DNA of 32,383 nt from Synergistaceae bacterium (GTDB lineage Bacteria; Synergistota; Synergistia; Synergistales; Aminobacteriaceae): the NCBI GenBank assembly GCA_017405525.1, contig JAFRAH010000018.1, positions 1 to 32,383 of the forward strand, given 5' to 3'. Numbering within the stretch: the stretch's first letter is position 1; each line of letters starts with the position of its first letter. The notes under the pieces were generated by a model. It saw only the letters and a program-made list of their open reading frames with translations. It was not told the origin of the DNA and ran no database searches. Of this stretch, positions 1 to 6,787 are shown piece after piece. The position numbers and the translations under genes are program-made.

Positions 1-538
1 CAAGCTCAAGGACAAGTTCATTGTGGGACATGCCGGGCGTTTCATGCGCCAGAAGAATCACGGCTTCCTGATCGACATATTCGCGGAGATACACAGGCGG
101 CGTGATGATGCTGTGCTGCTCCTTGCGGGGGATGGCGAGCTTATGGACGAGGTTACGGACAAGGTCATGCGTCTGGGGCTGAATGAGTGCGTTGTGTTCC
201 TGGGGAACGTCCACGACATGGAGAGATACTATCAGGCAATGGACGTGTTCATACTGCCGAGCCTGTACGAAGGTCTGCCGGTTGTAGGGAGTGAAGTTCA
301 GGTGTCAGAGCTTCCGTTCCTCTGTGCTGACACCGTTACGCCTGAGACGAAATTCTGCGACAACATGCGCTTCATGTCCTTGCGTGAGAATGCGAGGGAC
401 TGGGCACGTGAGGCTCTCCGAATCTCGAACGGCCATATTCGCCGGGACATGAGCCAGCCTGCACGTGATGCCGGGTTCGACATCAAGGCTCAAGGTGCGA
501 GAATGTCCGAATGGTACTGTCAGTTGCTGGGGATATAG
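1..538 (+). CDS. Glycosyltransferase family 4-type, C-terminal part (5' truncated by window)
   Basis: The reading frame is open from base 2, so the N-terminal acceptor-binding domain lies outside the window. What remains is the C-terminal GT-B donor-binding domain. It begins with the GHAGRF.RQKNHGFLIDIF segment typical of EpsF-like glycosyltransferases, then LLLAGDGELMDEV, VVFLGNVHDMERYYQAMDVF, and the sugar-nucleotide site LPSLYEGLPVVGSEVQ with its two conserved glutamates. Members move a sugar from a nucleotide donor onto polysaccharide or glycan intermediates at the cytoplasmic face of the membrane. The substrate cannot be told. The stop at 536-538 lies inside the 3' end of the convergent citG gene. 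The family is clear; the exact role is not. Confidence 0.85.
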   Translation, partial: KLKDKFIVGHAGRFMRQKNHGFLIDIFAEIHRRRDDAVLLLAGDGELMDEVTDKVMRLGLNECVVFLGNVHDMERYYQAMDVFILPSLYEGLPVVGSEVQVSELPFLCADTVTPETKFCDNMRFMSLRENARDWAREALRISNGHIRRDMSQPARDAGFDIKAQGARMSEWYCQLLGI

Positions 539-1370
539 AGTAGAGGAAGTACGTTACTGCTAGGAGATCCCCGGAGCCTCCCGGAGAAATCCACCGTGAA
601 ATGAACTCGTCATCAAGCCGCCGGATGTCCTCAAGACCGAAGCCTGAACTCACCATCTCATGAGCCGTCCTCATGACCTCTTGGGCTGTCTTCATGTCGT
701 GGCGGGATATTATGTTCGTGTCGTGTGCATGTGCCATAATGTGGATCAGCGTCATCGCAAGAGCGTCATTCATGCTCAGGCCGTCAGCAAGGTAGCGTTT
801 CAGTGCAGGAAGTGATGCCTCCCTCACCGAAGGATAGCCCGCCTCAGCCTCGCCGCGTATTCCTGTGATGCCATGTTCGAGGTAGACACGCTCCCCTTTC
901 GTGAGCATGGCCGGGGATTTTTCCCGAACCCCCGCAAAGTCAGCACTGCATATCCCCCTGCACATATCAGCCGCAAGAGTCATAGTCCCTTCAGCCGTAA
1001 GTTCACGCCCTGAACCCGAAAGATACCCCGCGCATGAAGCCAGAAGTCCCAGCGAGAATATTTCCCCCTTGTGAGTGTTTATGCCGCCGGTTGCACGGAA
1101 CATTCTGCGTTCGGCCTCAATCCCAATCTTGCGGATGCCCGGAAAAATTGAAGCAGGAGGAACGCCCACAGCTCCCCCTGCAAATCCTGCCTCCGTGAAC
1201 TCACTGAATGACCCTCCCAATGATGCCGCGCTCTTCATGAACGTGAAGAAGTCCATATCCCTGTGAGCTCCTGAGTTGTTGCGATCAACGAGTCCGGGCT
1301 TTGGGGTTGCCGACACTTCAAGGAGCATTGCCTCAAGTGCCAGCCTTCCGACTGCCTCACTCGTCATCAT
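483..1370 (-). CDS. citG: Triphosphoribosyl-dephospho-CoA synthase (CitG family)
   Basis: CitG makes 2'-(5''-triphosphoribosyl)-3'-dephospho-CoA from ATP and dephospho-CoA. This is the precursor of the prosthetic group of citrate lyase (or of malonate decarboxylase, via MdcB). The family signature is visible: EVSATPKPGLVDRNNSGAH near residues 18-36, DMDFF, GGINTHKGEIFSLGLL near 95-110, HAHDTNI, and the closing ISPGGSGDLLAVTYFL. About 295 residues matches the family length. Three in-frame ATGs at 1379, 1370 and 1367 compete, and no strong ribosome site precedes any of them; 1370 is chosen. The start overlaps the end of the RND gene by 14 bases, which suggests translational coupling. The 3' end overlaps the glycosyltransferase by 56 bases. 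No citrate lyase subunit genes are in the window. Confidence 0.85.
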   Translation of the reverse strand: MMTSEAVGRLALEAMLLEVSATPKPGLVDRNNSGAHRDMDFFTFMKSAASLGGSFSEFTEAGFAGGAVGVPPASIFPGIRKIGIEAERRMFRATGGINTHKGEIFSLGLLASCAGYLSGSGRELTAEGTMTLAADMCRGICSADFAGVREKSPAMLTKGERVYLEHGITGIRGEAEAGYPSVREASLPALKRYLADGLSMNDALAMTLIHIMAHAHDTNIISRHDMKTAQEVMRTAHEMVSSGFGLEDIRRLDDEFISRWISPGGSGDLLAVTYFLYSISPATDSTIRTFSHLEP

Positions 1371-4300
1371 CGTCTTCATCGTCGTATTCGTCCGAGTCAT
1401 CGTCAGTGTCAGTTTCGCCGTATTCCCTGCCACGTATCCTGTCCCAGAAGAGCCAGAGCCTCCACACGCATTTATACGCCGCAGGTATCGAGAGCATGGC
1501 CAGCATTCCGCCCGCAATCAGGCCGCCAATCGCAACGACAGCAATCGGCCTCTTCATCTCCGAGCCTCTTCCTGTTGAGAGCAATGGGAGCAGTGAGACG
1601 ACCGACGTAACCACAGCCATCAATAGCGACTTGAACCTGACGTGGCAAGCCTCTTCAACCGCCTCATAAGGGTGAGTTCCCTTGAGCCTCAGAACTTCCG
1701 CGTAATCGACAACAACGATTGCATTATTGACGACCATACCGACAAGCATAATCATTCCTATCAGTGCGAATATTGAGATGTTGACCTCAGAGATGAGCAT
1801 TGCCGGGACTACACCGATTGCTGCCATTGGGACTGTGGCAAGAATAACAATGCTGTAAATCCACGACTCAAGAATTGCCGCAACAACCAAGTACGTAACG
1901 ACGATAGCAATAACCAGTGTCCTTATGAGTTCCGTGAAGTTCTCGGCCATGTCTTCCTGTTCACCGCCGAAATTCACCGTTACGCCTTCGGGAAGAGTCA
2001 TGCCCTCGACAACCTCACGCATTCTTGCATTGCCCTCACCTGAAGTGATGTAGCGGACATTCCCCGTAACGACGACTGCCCTCTGACGCTCAACCCTCCG
2101 TATCTCGGTAGGTGAGTCGCTCCAAGCAACGTCAGCCATCTCATCGAGTGGAACAAGCCCGTAGCTCGTCATTATTGGGAGTTCGTGGGCGTTGAAGATG
2201 TCGCTGGCCTTGTCCCGTTCAATCCTCGCCTTTATGTCGTACTCATAGCCTCCCTGCCTGAACTTCCCTGCGTCCCTGCCGATAAGATAGCCCCTCACTA
2301 TTCCCGCAAGGTCTGAGATGTTTATTCCCAGTGGTGAGAGCCTCCAGCGTATTGGCTTGACCTGAAGCTCAGGTTTTCCCATCTCCATCTCAATGGTGAG
2401 GTCTCTTATTCCCGGAATTTTGCGGCCTCTTGCGCGTATCTCCTCCGCAAGATTGTAGAGCTGGTTCAAGTCCTCGCCCTTTATCTGTATCTCTATGGGG
2501 TTGCCAAAACCTGAACGTGTCGCGGCTATGGCTATCTGTACTCCCGGCAAGTTCGAGAGATAGGGACGTATCTTGTCGGCCAAGTCTTGGGTTGATGGCC
2601 TGTCGGGGTCTTCAGTCATGTAGAGTGCTACTTGTGCCTCACTGATTGAGTTGCTCCTCATTGAGCTGGCTACTGTCGAGACTACGTTCTTGATGTATTT
2701 CCGTTCGGGCAGGGTGTTGATGTAGTCCTCAACGTGATAGATCAGGTCAGCCGTCCGGTATATGGATGAGTTGTTGTCGAGCGTCAGAGTAATCCTCACA
2801 GTACCGTCATCCATTGAGGGGGTGAACTGCGTGCCGATGAAGCCGCCCAACTTCAACGAGCCGTAAGTGGCAAGAACGGTGAACAGAACCGTAAGCATTG
2901 GGAACCTCATAGCCACATGAAGGATGATGAAGAAGAGATCCCTGAAGCCGTCAAATATCCAGTTCCACCAGCCGGTTAATATCTTGCCGATTAGTGGGAG
3001 CTCGCCATTGTCGTTTTTGTCCTTCTTCATTCTTGCGGCCAAACAGGGAGTTACTGCCATTGTTACCCAGAGTGAGAAGGCTGTAGCATAGACGATAGTA
3101 ACAGCGTAGGGTTTCAGGAACTGCCCCGCAATCGTGCTCATCAGTGCGACGGGCATAAACACTCCCAAGTTCGTCAACACTCCCGCAAGAACGGACATTG
3201 AGATTTCTACCGTGCCTTCTTCTGCGGCCTCGAAAGGCTCATATCCCATGTCCCTGAAGCGGTAGATGTTCTGGATGATGAGTATTGCGTTCATGACGAG
3301 CGTACCCATCGAGAGCGCAAGGCCGAGCGTGCTCATGAGGTTTAGGGTGTAGCCGTGAATCTGAAGGGGAACGAACGTTGCGGCAAAAGCTACGGGCATC
3401 GAGAAAGCAACAATGAACGTAGCTCCGAACCTCCCCAAGAAGAGATATATCACGAGTGCGGTCAAGGCTATACCGATTGCAGTATCACGGATGATGTTCT
3501 TGACTGCGGACTCGACAAACCCCGTGTCATCGTAGGTGTACTCAAACGTAAAATCCGGGTAGTCCCTCATTGTGCGTGTCATGAGGCGTTTTATCTGCCT
3601 TCCTGCCTCGACAACGTCAGCATTTGAGCGCGGGCTTATCCTGAGCTGAACTACAGGGTGCCCGTCTGCCCGTGCCATGCTCCTCTGGTCTTCCTCGCCG
3701 TCCACAACCTCGCCTAGCATCGAGAGCCTCACAGGCTGGCCGTTGGGTGTGGGTATGAGGATGTCCTCCAGCTGCTCCACCTCGTTGAACTCGCCCATGA
3801 GACGCAACGATACTTCATCTTTCCGCTGGGTGATGTAGCCTGAAGGTGTCGTCTGGTTGTTCGCCGCAACGACATTGCACACCTGCATGTAGTTGATGCC
3901 GTAATCGCTCAGTGCCGCAGGGTCAAGGTTAATGTGTATCTCCCTGTCCCTTCCGCCCGTAACGTCAACTCGTCCCACTCCCTCAACTCGTGCAACAACC
4001 GGCTGAATCCTGTCCTCAATAATCTTCTTGGCTGTCTTTTCCGGCATTGATGAGCTGAACGAGATAATCAGGAATGGCTGGGCTGATATGTCGAACTTGC
4101 TCGAAACTGGCTCGTCGGCATCATCAGGAAGATCCGGGACGTTTGCCTTCACCTTGTTGTTCACGTCGACAAGTGCAAGGTCAGGGTTAGTTCCTGCTTC
4201 CATCTCAACCGCTACCATTGAGATGCCTTCAATTGAGTATGTTGTTATGGACTTGAGATTTTCGAGGTCGGCTAATGCGTCTTCGAGGGGCTTGCTGATG

Positions 4301-4488
4301 AGCTGTTCGATTTCGTTCGGGCCTGCTCCTGTGTAGGTAGTTCGGACAAGGACAAAGGGGAGCTCAACATCAGGGTAAAGAGTAACGCCTAACGTGAAGT
4401 AGCTTGAGATGCCTAACAGTATCCATATGACAACAGAACACCCGGTAAAGACCGGGTGCGTAATGCAGAACTTTATGAATCCTCTCAT
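1357..4488 (-). CDS. RND-family efflux pump, inner-membrane permease (AcrB/SwrC-like)
   Basis: This 1043-residue protein has the full RND layout: TM1 (about 12-34), a large periplasmic porter loop (about 35-330), TMs 2-6 (about 335-485), a second porter loop (about 550-850) and TMs 8-12 (about 855-1010). Segments such as LYPDVELPFV, TYTGAGPNEIEQLISKPLEDAL and GMVVNNAIVVVDYAE (916-930) are typical of the HAE-1/SwrC branch. Such pumps export hydrophobic compounds using the proton gradient, working with a periplasmic adaptor and an outer-membrane channel. The adaptor gene lies 6 bases upstream; no TolC-like gene is in view. At TM4, where AcrB has Asp407-Asp408 and SwrC-type pumps have Asp-Asn, this protein reads GTLVMNAILIIQN, with Met399-Asn400. 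The C-terminus is a run of Asp and Glu. The substrate is unknown. Confidence 0.93.
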   Translation of the reverse strand: MRGFIKFCITHPVFTGCSVVIWILLGISSYFTLGVTLYPDVELPFVLVRTTYTGAGPNEIEQLISKPLEDALADLENLKSITTYSIEGISMVAVEMEAGTNPDLALVDVNNKVKANVPDLPDDADEPVSSKFDISAQPFLIISFSSSMPEKTAKKIIEDRIQPVVARVEGVGRVDVTGGRDREIHINLDPAALSDYGINYMQVCNVVAANNQTTPSGYITQRKDEVSLRLMGEFNEVEQLEDILIPTPNGQPVRLSMLGEVVDGEEDQRSMARADGHPVVQLRISPRSNADVVEAGRQIKRLMTRTMRDYPDFTFEYTYDDTGFVESAVKNIIRDTAIGIALTALVIYLFLGRFGATFIVAFSMPVAFAATFVPLQIHGYTLNLMSTLGLALSMGTLVMNAILIIQNIYRFRDMGYEPFEAAEEGTVEISMSVLAGVLTNLGVFMPVALMSTIAGQFLKPYAVTIVYATAFSLWVTMAVTPCLAARMKKDKNDNGELPLIGKILTGWWNWIFDGFRDLFFIILHVAMRFPMLTVLFTVLATYGSLKLGGFIGTQFTPSMDDGTVRITLTLDNNSSIYRTADLIYHVEDYINTLPERKYIKNVVSTVASSMRSNSISEAQVALYMTEDPDRPSTQDLADKIRPYLSNLPGVQIAIAATRSGFGNPIEIQIKGEDLNQLYNLAEEIRARGRKIPGIRDLTIEMEMGKPELQVKPIRWRLSPLGINISDLAGIVRGYLIGRDAGKFRQGGYEYDIKARIERDKASDIFNAHELPIMTSYGLVPLDEMADVAWSDSPTEIRRVERQRAVVVTGNVRYITSGEGNARMREVVEGMTLPEGVTVNFGGEQEDMAENFTELIRTLVIAIVVTYLVVAAILESWIYSIVILATVPMAAIGVVPAMLISEVNISIFALIGMIMLVGMVVNNAIVVVDYAEVLRLKGTHPYEAVEEACHVRFKSLLMAVVTSVVSLLPLLSTGRGSEMKRPIAVVAIGGLIAGGMLAMLSIPAAYKCVWRLWLFWDRIRGREYGETDTDDDSDEYDDEDDDDE

Positions 4489-4494
4489 GAATGG

Positions 4495-5604
4495 TTATCC
4501 CTCGTTAGCTTCGTCTGCAGTGCTTCTCCCAGCGACTGACGCATTCCTGATGATCTCGGCACCGTCATAAAGTACCCTGTTGCCGCTGGTGATTAGTGCA
4601 TCTCCGGGCTTGAGCCCTGACGTTACTACCACTCTTCCTTCGCGTCCCTCGCCTGTTGTTATGGCTGTGAGCTTGGCCTTGCCCCCGTCCGCAACATAGA
4701 CCGACTGAGTATTGCCGCGATAGATTACGACGTTCGAGGGGATGACTACAACGTTCTGCTGACTGCTGACCTTGAACCTTCCCTCAACGTAAGTTCCCGG
4801 AAGAATCCCGGAGTTCTCCGGCAGTCCAACTATTACGGGGTAGAGACCTGAGCCTGGCTGAGCTTCGGGGCTTATGCGTTTTACCCAGCCGTTATGTGTC
4901 TGGCCATCAACGCGAATCTCAACCGTAGTGCCTGCATTGATCTTCATGATGTCCTTCTTCGAGACCATGAGCTGAGCCTCCATAGTCTTGGGGTCAACGA
5001 TTGAGAGCAATACCGCCCCAGCCTCTGCAATTTCTCCGGGCTCAACGTTACGCGCCGCTACTATTCCGTTGATGCTGGCCTTGAGGCTCGTTCTCTGGAG
5101 TGATGACTGCGTGGACTTCAGGGCTGCCTCTGCCGTCTTCATGCGTGAATATGCTGCGTCAACCTCGGACTTCGAGATGCCTCCCTTTGCGTTGAGCTGC
5201 TTGAGCCTGTTGTAGTTCAGCACTGCCTCATCGTATGCTGTCTTCCCTGACTGTACCTGTGCTCCCCTCGCCGCAACCTGAAGGGTTATGAGTGTCTGGC
5301 CTGCCTTTACGGGGCTTCCTACGTCAACGTTCACGCTCCTGACTATCTCGCGCTCGTAGGTTGTTATGTTCTGTGTATGTGCGCTTTTTGCCTGGCCGTA
5401 ATAGCTCCTCCAAGTCTCCCAGTTTGTCGTCTTCAGTATCTCTGTCTCAACGGGGTAAACTGTTTCTGTCTGTGTTTCGAGCGAACGAAGATTAGCCGCG
5501 GCCTGTGCAAGTTTAGCCCTGACCTGAGTACTCACGAGGAAGCCCACACCGACAAGTGCCAATACCCACAATAATATTCTTATGCGTGTAAAAAATTTCA
5601 GCAT
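4495..5604 (-). CDS. RND pump periplasmic adaptor (membrane fusion protein, HlyD/AcrA type)
   Basis: The protein is about 369 residues. An N-terminal membrane anchor or uncleaved signal (FFTRIRILLWVLALVGVGFLV) is followed by a lipoyl half with VNVDVGSPVKAGQTLITLQ. A short alpha-helical hairpin follows (LNYNRLKQLNAKGGISKSEVDAAY to about SSLQRTSL), then the second lipoyl half (ASINGIVAARNVEPGEIAEAG), a beta-barrel and a membrane-proximal domain (VYVADGGKAKLTAITTG). It would link the adjacent pump to an outer-membrane channel. The start is ATG at 5604, with GGTGAT 8 bases upstream; an in-frame TTG at 5610 is also possible, with GAGG 6 bases upstream. The pump gene starts 6 bases after its stop, so the two are one operon. 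Confidence 0.9.
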   Translation of the reverse strand: MLKFFTRIRILLWVLALVGVGFLVSTQVRAKLAQAAANLRSLETQTETVYPVETEILKTTNWETWRSYYGQAKSAHTQNITTYEREIVRSVNVDVGSPVKAGQTLITLQVAARGAQVQSGKTAYDEAVLNYNRLKQLNAKGGISKSEVDAAYSRMKTAEAALKSTQSSLQRTSLKASINGIVAARNVEPGEIAEAGAVLLSIVDPKTMEAQLMVSKKDIMKINAGTTVEIRVDGQTHNGWVKRISPEAQPGSGLYPVIVGLPENSGILPGTYVEGRFKVSSQQNVVVIPSNVVIYRGNTQSVYVADGGKAKLTAITTGEGREGRVVVTSGLKPGDALITSGNRVLYDGAEIIRNASVAGRSTADEANEG

Positions 5605-5659
5605 AAACAAACATCACCTCGTATATAAATTTTTGTGTGAATGTATCTTGTGAAACCGC

Positions 5660-5731: not shown

Positions 5732-6787
5732 TTATAGTGCCCTCTTGAAGTCCCCCCTGTCAACAACAACCTCATAGCCTATTGAGCGCATCCGATTGCT
5801 GAGGCATTCCCTGCACTGCGCTGACTCCTCGCCCGTGCATATCTTGTTGTCGTAGAGCTCGTACTTCCTCCGAACGTTCACAGGCGACAAGTTCGGCATG
5901 ACCACATTAGCACCCGACATTATGCCCTTCTCCCGTCCCAACGGGTCAATAGTCCCCAGTGCTGTAGTCGCTGGCAGTAGGACAGGCGGGTGAACCAGAC
6001 GTATCACCGACAGCAAGTAGCACGTCAGCTCAAGCGTCCCGGCTGGCTCGTCCCTGAACGGCGTATCCTTGTGGGGAATGAACGGCCCAATCCCGCACAT
6101 CTCAGGCCGGAACGTCTCAATGAACTTCAGGTCTTCCGCAAGTATTCTTGTTGTCTGGTACGGACTGCCCACCATGAAGCCGCAACCAACCTGATAGCCC
6201 AGTTCCCGGAGTTCACGAAGGCAATTCATTCGGTTATCCCACGACATGGCCGGGGGGTGAAGCCTCGCGTAATGCTCAGGGTCAGCCGTCTCATGCCTCA
6301 GCAAATACCTGTCAGCCCCGCAAGCTCTCAGGTGCTCGTAGCTTGAACGTGAACGCTCGCCCATCGAGAGAGTTACGGCACAATCAGGATGGCTAGCCTT
6401 GATGCTCCTGACTATTCCCCCCAAGACCTCATCAGTGAAGTATGAGTCTTCCCCGCCCTGAAGAACGAACGTCCGAAATCCCAAGCTGTAGCCCTCATCA
6501 GCACACGCAGTAATCTCGTCGGGGTTAAGCCTGTAGCGTTCACAGTGAGGGTTGCTGCGTCTGATGCCACAATATAGACAGTCATTGCGGCAAATGTTCG
6601 AGACCTCAATTAGACCGCGAACATAGACGTGATTCCCGTAGATCCTCCGGCGTTCCTTCACGGCCAAATCACGCAAGAGCCTCGCGGATTCCTCGTTGCG
6701 CCCGGCTATCAGGCGTTCGTACTCCTCAATGCTCAGTGAGTGACTCTCTGACAGCTTACGGATTAGCGGGGAAATGTCTTCGGCCAT
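5732..6787 (-). CDS. hydE: [FeFe]-hydrogenase H-cluster maturase HydE (radical SAM)
   Basis: HydE is a radical-SAM enzyme needed, with HydG and HydF, to build the 2Fe subcluster of [FeFe] hydrogenase in the cytoplasm. The radical-SAM motif CX3CX2C is C66-C70-C73 in NICRNDCLYCGIRRSN. Family-specific stretches include GYSLGFRTFVLQGGED, HETADPEHYARLHP, GCGFMVGSPYQTT, GIGPFIPHKDTPF and GANVVMPNLSPVNVRRKYELYD. A C-terminal CX7CX2C (C317, C325, C328) matches the accessory cluster site found in many HydE proteins. Its 351 residues are the normal length. The start ATG lies 4 bases after the stop of the TM1266-type gene. No hydF, hydG or hydrogenase gene is in the window. Confidence 0.95.
   Translation of the reverse strand: MAEDISPLIRKLSESHSLSIEEYERLIAGRNEESARLLRDLAVKERRRIYGNHVYVRGLIEVSNICRNDCLYCGIRRSNPHCERYRLNPDEITACADEGYSLGFRTFVLQGGEDSYFTDEVLGGIVRSIKASHPDCAVTLSMGERSRSSYEHLRACGADRYLLRHETADPEHYARLHPPAMSWDNRMNCLRELRELGYQVGCGFMVGSPYQTTRILAEDLKFIETFRPEMCGIGPFIPHKDTPFRDEPAGTLELTCYLLSVIRLVHPPVLLPATTALGTIDPLGREKGIMSGANVVMPNLSPVNVRRKYELYDNKICTGEESAQCRECLSNRMRSIGYEVVVDRGDFKRAL

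Follow-up and report, generated by a model that had tools for sequence, protein, structure and literature searches.

An AcrB-family permease of rumen Synergistaceae without a carboxylate in its proton-relay core

Introduction

AcrB-like RND pumps typically carry a GX3DX6E motif, and for MexB a loss of activity is reported with D407N and D408N (PMC5719797). For AcrB itself, PMC4359379 describes the D407N, D408N, K940A and R971A variants as inactive in both proton transport and efflux, and D407N as biasing the T protomer in the direction of the O state. The central acid is likewise described, on the basis of its substitution, as essential in the RND proteins studied in PMC8277102. In the AcrB-type pumps investigated to date, a change of the central acid on the fourth transmembrane helix (TM4) kills the pump (PMC4359379, PMC8277102). 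Exceptions at Asp407/Asp408 are already in print, since four Burkholderia HAE-1 sequences lacking these residues are noted in PMC2891726.

Here we describe a permease gene from a Synergistaceae genome, carried on a 32,383-nucleotide stretch of DNA (the window), together with its relatives in the phylum Synergistota. Positions such as 407 and 979 are given in AcrB numbering throughout.

Results

The window carries on its reverse strand (1357..4488) an open reading frame for an RND permease of the AcrB family, 1043 residues long and devoid of any carboxylate in the proton-relay core. The protein matches the Pfam ACR_tran profile (PF00873) over residues 4-1007, scoring 700.7 bits where the cut-off is 28; none of the curated cut-offs of the NCBIfam RND permease subfamilies was reached, the best being NF033617 with 623 bits versus 1250. 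Its AlphaFold2 model (mean pLDDT 83.6, pTM 0.74) finds its top structural matches in AcrD (TM-score 0.89) and MdtF (Z 52.1; 991 aligned residues at an rmsd of 3.4), and the predicted structure shows that an AcrB-type fold is retained. At its C-terminal end, residues 1024-1043 (1360-1419, reverse strand) form a tail rich in Asp and Glu that was modelled with very low confidence. Assignment to the CusA/CzcA heavy-metal pumps was considered and is not supported: TIGR00914 gave 366.9 bits versus 701.45, and only one of what we take to be the nine CusA Met sites is Met here.

The relay residues were read from an alignment that had E. coli K-12 AcrB as its reference and included 94 distinct Synergistota proteins, MdtB, MdtC and CusA. 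Both the translation and this alignment agree with the earlier note on this DNA, which had placed Met-Asn at codons 399-400 where AcrB has Asp407-Asp408 (Met399-Asn400; 3289..3294, reverse strand). The surrounding GX3DX6E stretch, GTLVMNAILIIQ (3271..3306, reverse strand), has both of its acids swapped, Met399 standing for Asp407 and Gln406 for Glu414, so that the translation departs from the motif at the TM4 Asp and from AcrB at Asp408 as well. TM10 reads Asn921-Asn922 (1723..1728, reverse strand) where AcrB has Lys940-Asn941 and, as had also been proposed, offers no compensating charge. On TM11, the stretch from Arg951 to Ala958-Val959 (1612..1638, reverse strand) corresponds to Arg971 through Thr978-Ser979; the Arg is kept and the Thr is gone. 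Arg971 is thus the sole other relay residue retained, Lys940 and Thr978 being replaced by Asn921 and Ala958.

A search of the TM4, TM10 and TM11 core for another acid found none in the window protein, nor in the 18 rows of its Met-bearing clade that were counted. In these core stretches, proteins of the Asp407 and Asp979 groups that were counted have 1.00-1.03 Asp plus Glu on average; the figure is 0.00 in the Met clade, in a group with Asn407 and Ile979, and in a more distant group with Ser/Thr/Ala-Asn. The earlier note had allowed for a buried Asp or Glu elsewhere; in this core there is none, but two conserved acids remain within the helix ranges, both periplasm-ward. They are Asp335, which with Arg334 lies in the periplasmic part of TM2 (3484..3489, reverse strand), and Glu853, where TM8 begins on the periplasmic side (1930..1932, reverse strand), each a candidate carboxylate site picked out by the alignment and a column scan. 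Relay changes extend beyond the window clade: with five exceptions, the position of Lys940 is Asn throughout the 98 aligned rows. The exceptions are CusA, which has Glu, and L002 and the three HAE-1 pumps of E. coli, which have Lys. A second Synergistota RND family (L130, L146, L152, L153, L154 and L157), about 28-30% identical, has Ser/Thr/Ala-Asn at 407-408 and also lacks Arg971 and Thr978, so that its relay loss is even fuller.

The Met-Asn state is fixed in its clade and under strong purifying selection. Forty loci were found at genus level, two of which stop short of TM4, and GTLVMNA is present in all 38 that cover it. Among 52 distinct full-length Met pumps, which span 64-100% identity, codon 399 is always ATG and codon 400 always Asn, while the codons flanking 399 vary synonymously. 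TM4 is the clade's most conserved helix (mean identity 0.98 versus 0.72 for the whole protein; 18 rows). For pairs at least 86% identical to the window pump, median dN/dS was 0.046 over the whole gene and 0.030 over the membrane helices, values that come from 13 and 18 of 25 sampled pairs, respectively, and from a dS near saturation (median 1.9). A private mutation or read error, under which close relatives would all have carried Asp, is thereby ruled out by the 38 loci and 52 members, and gene decay, already thought unlikely in the earlier note, by the low dN/dS.

Related loci in named genomes come from assemblies of Synergistaceae, Synergistales or Fretibacterium, many of which have rumen or reticulum as the sample source in their titles, and a scan of genome contigs with the window protein, a query whose reach is limited to close relatives, returned Synergistota only. 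Some match was found in all 43 genomes of the same genus. One of them, G039, has only fragments of the Met pump, and in two others (G012 and G019, 93% and 95% complete) the distant second pump is the sole match, so that the Met pump may not be essential.

The gene context is that of an export system. Directly upstream of the permease lies a gene for a membrane-fusion (adaptor) protein (4495..5610, reverse strand; TTG start as listed; RND_mfp TIGR01730, 170.6 bits versus 94.9), and 56 of the 60 loci examined have an adaptor gene close to the permease, several flanks ending at contig ends. The window protein is the permease component of an RND export system, linked to an adaptor, in rumen Synergistaceae. 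With the same proviso on flanks, no second RND gene was seen in any of the 60 loci, nor does one adjoin the window permease. Outer-membrane channel genes adjoin many Asp979 pumps and three pumps of an Asp407 sister group, but just one (L107) of the 18 Met loci that were inspected. Two such genes occur in the window genome, both on other contigs; an arrangement with an adaptor gene beside the permease and channel genes elsewhere in the genome is that of an HAE-1 system, the pairing being a candidate one. One channel gene adjoins an ABC-type exporter (L191), and a lone outer-membrane efflux protein gene stands by a lytic transglycosylase gene (L190:3872-5281, forward strand; genome G000, contig C35). 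The L190 channel is 39-54% identical to the channels adjoining L097, L101, L102 and L107, and this similarity to relatives' linked channels makes it a probable partner for the Met pump. At 99.4% completeness, the window genome encodes a single further full-length RND, which lies on a different contig, is 22-23% identical and has Asp407. Around the pump and adaptor genes, the next gene upstream of the adaptor encodes HydE, an [FeFe]-hydrogenase maturase (5732-6787, reverse strand), and an ORF for a CitG-type triphosphoribosyl-dephospho-CoA synthase (483-1517, reverse strand), in its listed extent, runs into the 3' end of the pump gene; since the synthase family is matched only from residue 55 on, the ORF's true start probably lies further in.

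Relatives of the window clade do carry another Asp near the relay site. In 33 Synergistota rows (about 40% identity) Asn407 goes with Asp at position 979 on TM11, beside the Thr978 position, where the window protein has Val959. The earlier note's alternative, that a different Asp occupies the relay position, is therefore wrong for the window protein and right for these relatives. Eight rows have Asn407 with Ile979, and the Met407 pumps (18 rows after thinning, 52 before) have Val or Ile979. None of 33 Asp407 rows, three of them from E. coli, has Asp979; in the remaining rows of the 102-row set, position 407 is Ser, Thr, Ala or Asn and Asp979 is absent. This set includes 18 of the 52 Met pumps, excludes L002 and has two rows without a readable position 979. 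Single cases are L109, with Asp408 together with Asp979, and L129, with Asn407 and Asn979. In 13 further Asn407 pumps Asp979 was found in 13 of the 13 with data, but these were chosen by similarity, so that the pattern is repeated and not independently tested. The exclusion between 407 and 979 is moreover a count over related sequences with only three independent contrasts, and a test of mutual exclusion is accordingly without power. Outside the phylum, the five plasmid-borne relatives that were read, out of at least 5000 matching records, all have Asp407 and none has Asp979.

Three trees were compared: one built without the trait columns from 88 of the 102 rows (the other 14 were ten near-duplicates and four partial rows), a second of 38 rows, also without trait columns, under a mixture model, and a third that kept the trait columns. 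All three concur in placing the Asn407/Asp979 pumps in the background, with an Asp407 group (L125-L128, L176-L178) and a crown clade each emerging from among them. Within the crown, a further Asp407 group (L097, L099, L101 and L102) is sister to the Met clade, and the Asn407/Ile979 group lies outside both. AU tests on 46 rows reject a single grouping of all Asp979 rows (p 5e-8), of all Asp407 rows together with L179 (p 3e-43) and of the acid-less crown rows (p 6e-4), although such tests presuppose groups named in advance and ours were defined by residues seen first. L179, from genome G102, is an Ala407 paralogue in the otherwise Asp407 group L125-L128; G102 also has a Met pump.

The outgroup and E. 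coli pumps have Asp407, and with the direction of change taken from the outgroups the simplest history has three changes per site. Under this history Asp407 would have been lost and Asp979 gained, after which Asp979 would have been lost and Asp407 regained twice, once in L125-L128 and once in the crown. These alignments and trees show the window clade to descend from pumps in which the core Asp had already shifted from TM4 (407) to TM11 (979). A step from Asn (AAC) to Asp (GAC) takes one base, and one from Asn to Met two.

The model of one Asn407/Asp979 relative, L114, has a mean pLDDT of 81.5 and a pTM of 0.72. In AcrB, according to PMC4359379, Thr978 forms a hydrogen bond with Asp407 and Arg971 is close to Glu414/Asn415. 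The same paper describes a second proton wire, entered at Glu346, between TM2-TM4 and TM11. Together these features make TM11 a plausible site for a carrier. We infer that the Asn407/Asp979 relatives are putative proton pumps with a relocated carrier.

Discussion

With no acid at the relay site, the known proton relay cannot operate in the window pump, which presumably cannot run the AcrB-type cycle of TM4 Asp protonation. Our first choice, a tentative one at somewhat less than an even chance, is that the window pump is a putative facilitated exporter driven by the substrate's own gradient and not a proton antiporter. Met399 and Asn400 would act as a permanently neutral, protonated-like relay, so that the membrane repeats would not be drawn together or apart by proton binding. 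The trimer would still cycle, driven by substrate entry, and the substrate would leave down its own gradient through the adaptor and an outer-membrane channel. Consistent with such export are the Met-Asn pair in all 52 clade members and the absence of core Asp/Glu from the 18 Met rows, the signs of kept function in the low dN/dS and the TM4 identity of 0.98, the AcrB fold with its adjoining adaptor and a lone channel gene resembling those of relatives, and the history drawn from three trees and the AU tests. However, the strong conservation of TM4, TM5, TM6 and TM10 argues for a specific role of the core beyond that of a passive hinge, Arg951 is retained, and the periplasmic-edge acids Asp335 and Glu853 could still bind protons.

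These edge acids are central to our second choice, an unlikely one, in which the protein remains a proton pump by means of a carboxylate outside the core, Asp335 and/or Glu853, with Arg951 and the Asn residues ordering water. PMC4359379 puts Glu346 of TM2 at the entrance of the second AcrB proton wire, and Asp335 corresponds to AcrB 343, one turn away, where it is present in all 52 Met and all eight Asn407/Ile979 pumps. An acid at AcrB 872 is found in 50 of 52 Met and eight of eight Asn407/Ile979 pumps, versus three of 20 Asp979 and none of eight Asp407 family members, and the separate acid-less family of L130, L146, L152, L153, L154 and L157 has Glu at 875 in six of six. Yet Asp335 is about equally common in most groups that retain Asp407, which weakens it as a specific replacement, and acids in the first part of TM8 (871-890) also occur in four of 13 and three of five Asp407 outgroup rows while being absent from the acid-less L129 and L179. 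Both residues were chosen after columns had been scanned, and both sit at the periplasmic edge; the TM8 acid, picked from a scan of all columns, is put forward as a lead only.

Coupling of the core to an ion other than H+ we regard as improbable. Removal of the Asp with retention of Arg951 leaves a positive, Asn-lined core, which might hold an anion near Arg951/Lys953, or else a cation on Asn or other polar groups; the bacteria live in the rumen, as sample titles indicate, and the rumen is rich in organic anions. Against this, we know of no tested precedent in the AcrB family for coupling to a non-H+ ion, and the CusA-type metal sites are absent. A shade less probable again is that the membrane domain is a non-transporting remnant retained for assembly or sensing. 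The replacement of relay residues essential in AcrB would fit a remnant, but dN/dS is lower in the helices than over the entire gene and the adaptor linkage is retained; the regain of Asp407 in the sister group, which implies a membrane domain able to use Asp, also counts against it. Least probable of all is a mixed trimer in which an acid-bearing RND partner supplies the proton coupling. MdtB and MdtC probably make up one pump, and acid-bearing relatives do co-occur: six of eight genomes with a full-length Asn407/Ile979 pump have an Asp979 relative among the fetched loci, and six of the seven genomes that combine a Met pump with a non-Met relative from its family have an Asp407 one. No second RND gene stands beside any of the 60 loci, which rejects a mixed trimer with a neighbouring permease, and the one other full-length RND of the window genome is remote in both location and sequence. 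In the window genus and several other genera, moreover, the Met pump was found and no acid-bearing member of the same family.

A broader proposal, which we consider doubtful, is that the RND proton carrier would be portable and dispensable. In Synergistota it would have passed from TM4 to TM11, been lost and come back to TM4 in one branch, and the window clade would have a working AcrB-fold exporter without any membrane-core carboxylate, the first in the AcrB family to be something other than a proton antiporter. Whichever mechanism applies, the natural Met clade with its moved-acid and regained-acid relatives provides a homologue series for testing the carboxylate's role, one that bears on how many protons are needed and on whether the conformational cycle runs without them. 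It also urges caution, as the label 'proton-driven drug efflux' is unsafe from homology alone. Among the papers listed by searches of the open-access literature, none dealt with these pumps or with a TM11 carrier.

To conclude, the window pump shares with AcrB and the HAE-1 pumps (E. coli AcrB, MdtB; PF00873) the 12-helix fold, the length, the porter domain, the adaptor gene and Arg971, whereas Asp407, Asp408, Glu414, Lys940 and Thr978 have become Met, Asn, Gln, Asn and Ala. MdtBC-type systems have a second permease gene in the operon, unlike the window and the 60 loci with their one RND gene each. CusA/CzcA have the RND fold and general arrangement in common with the window pump, but CusA retains the TM4 Asp and its Met relay sites, of which the window pump lacks the former and has one of the latter. 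The Asn407/Asp979 pumps (for example L114, from genome G072), the parent group of the window clade and about 41% identical, have the same Asn at 408, 940 and 941 and Ala at 978; they retain one core acid, on TM11 at 979, where the window clade has Val or Ile. The Asp407 sister group (L097, L099, L101, L102), 51-54% identical and in the same crown clade, shares Asn at 408 and 940 and differs in having Asp back at 407, Gly at 978 and the TM2 Asp (AcrB 343) lost.
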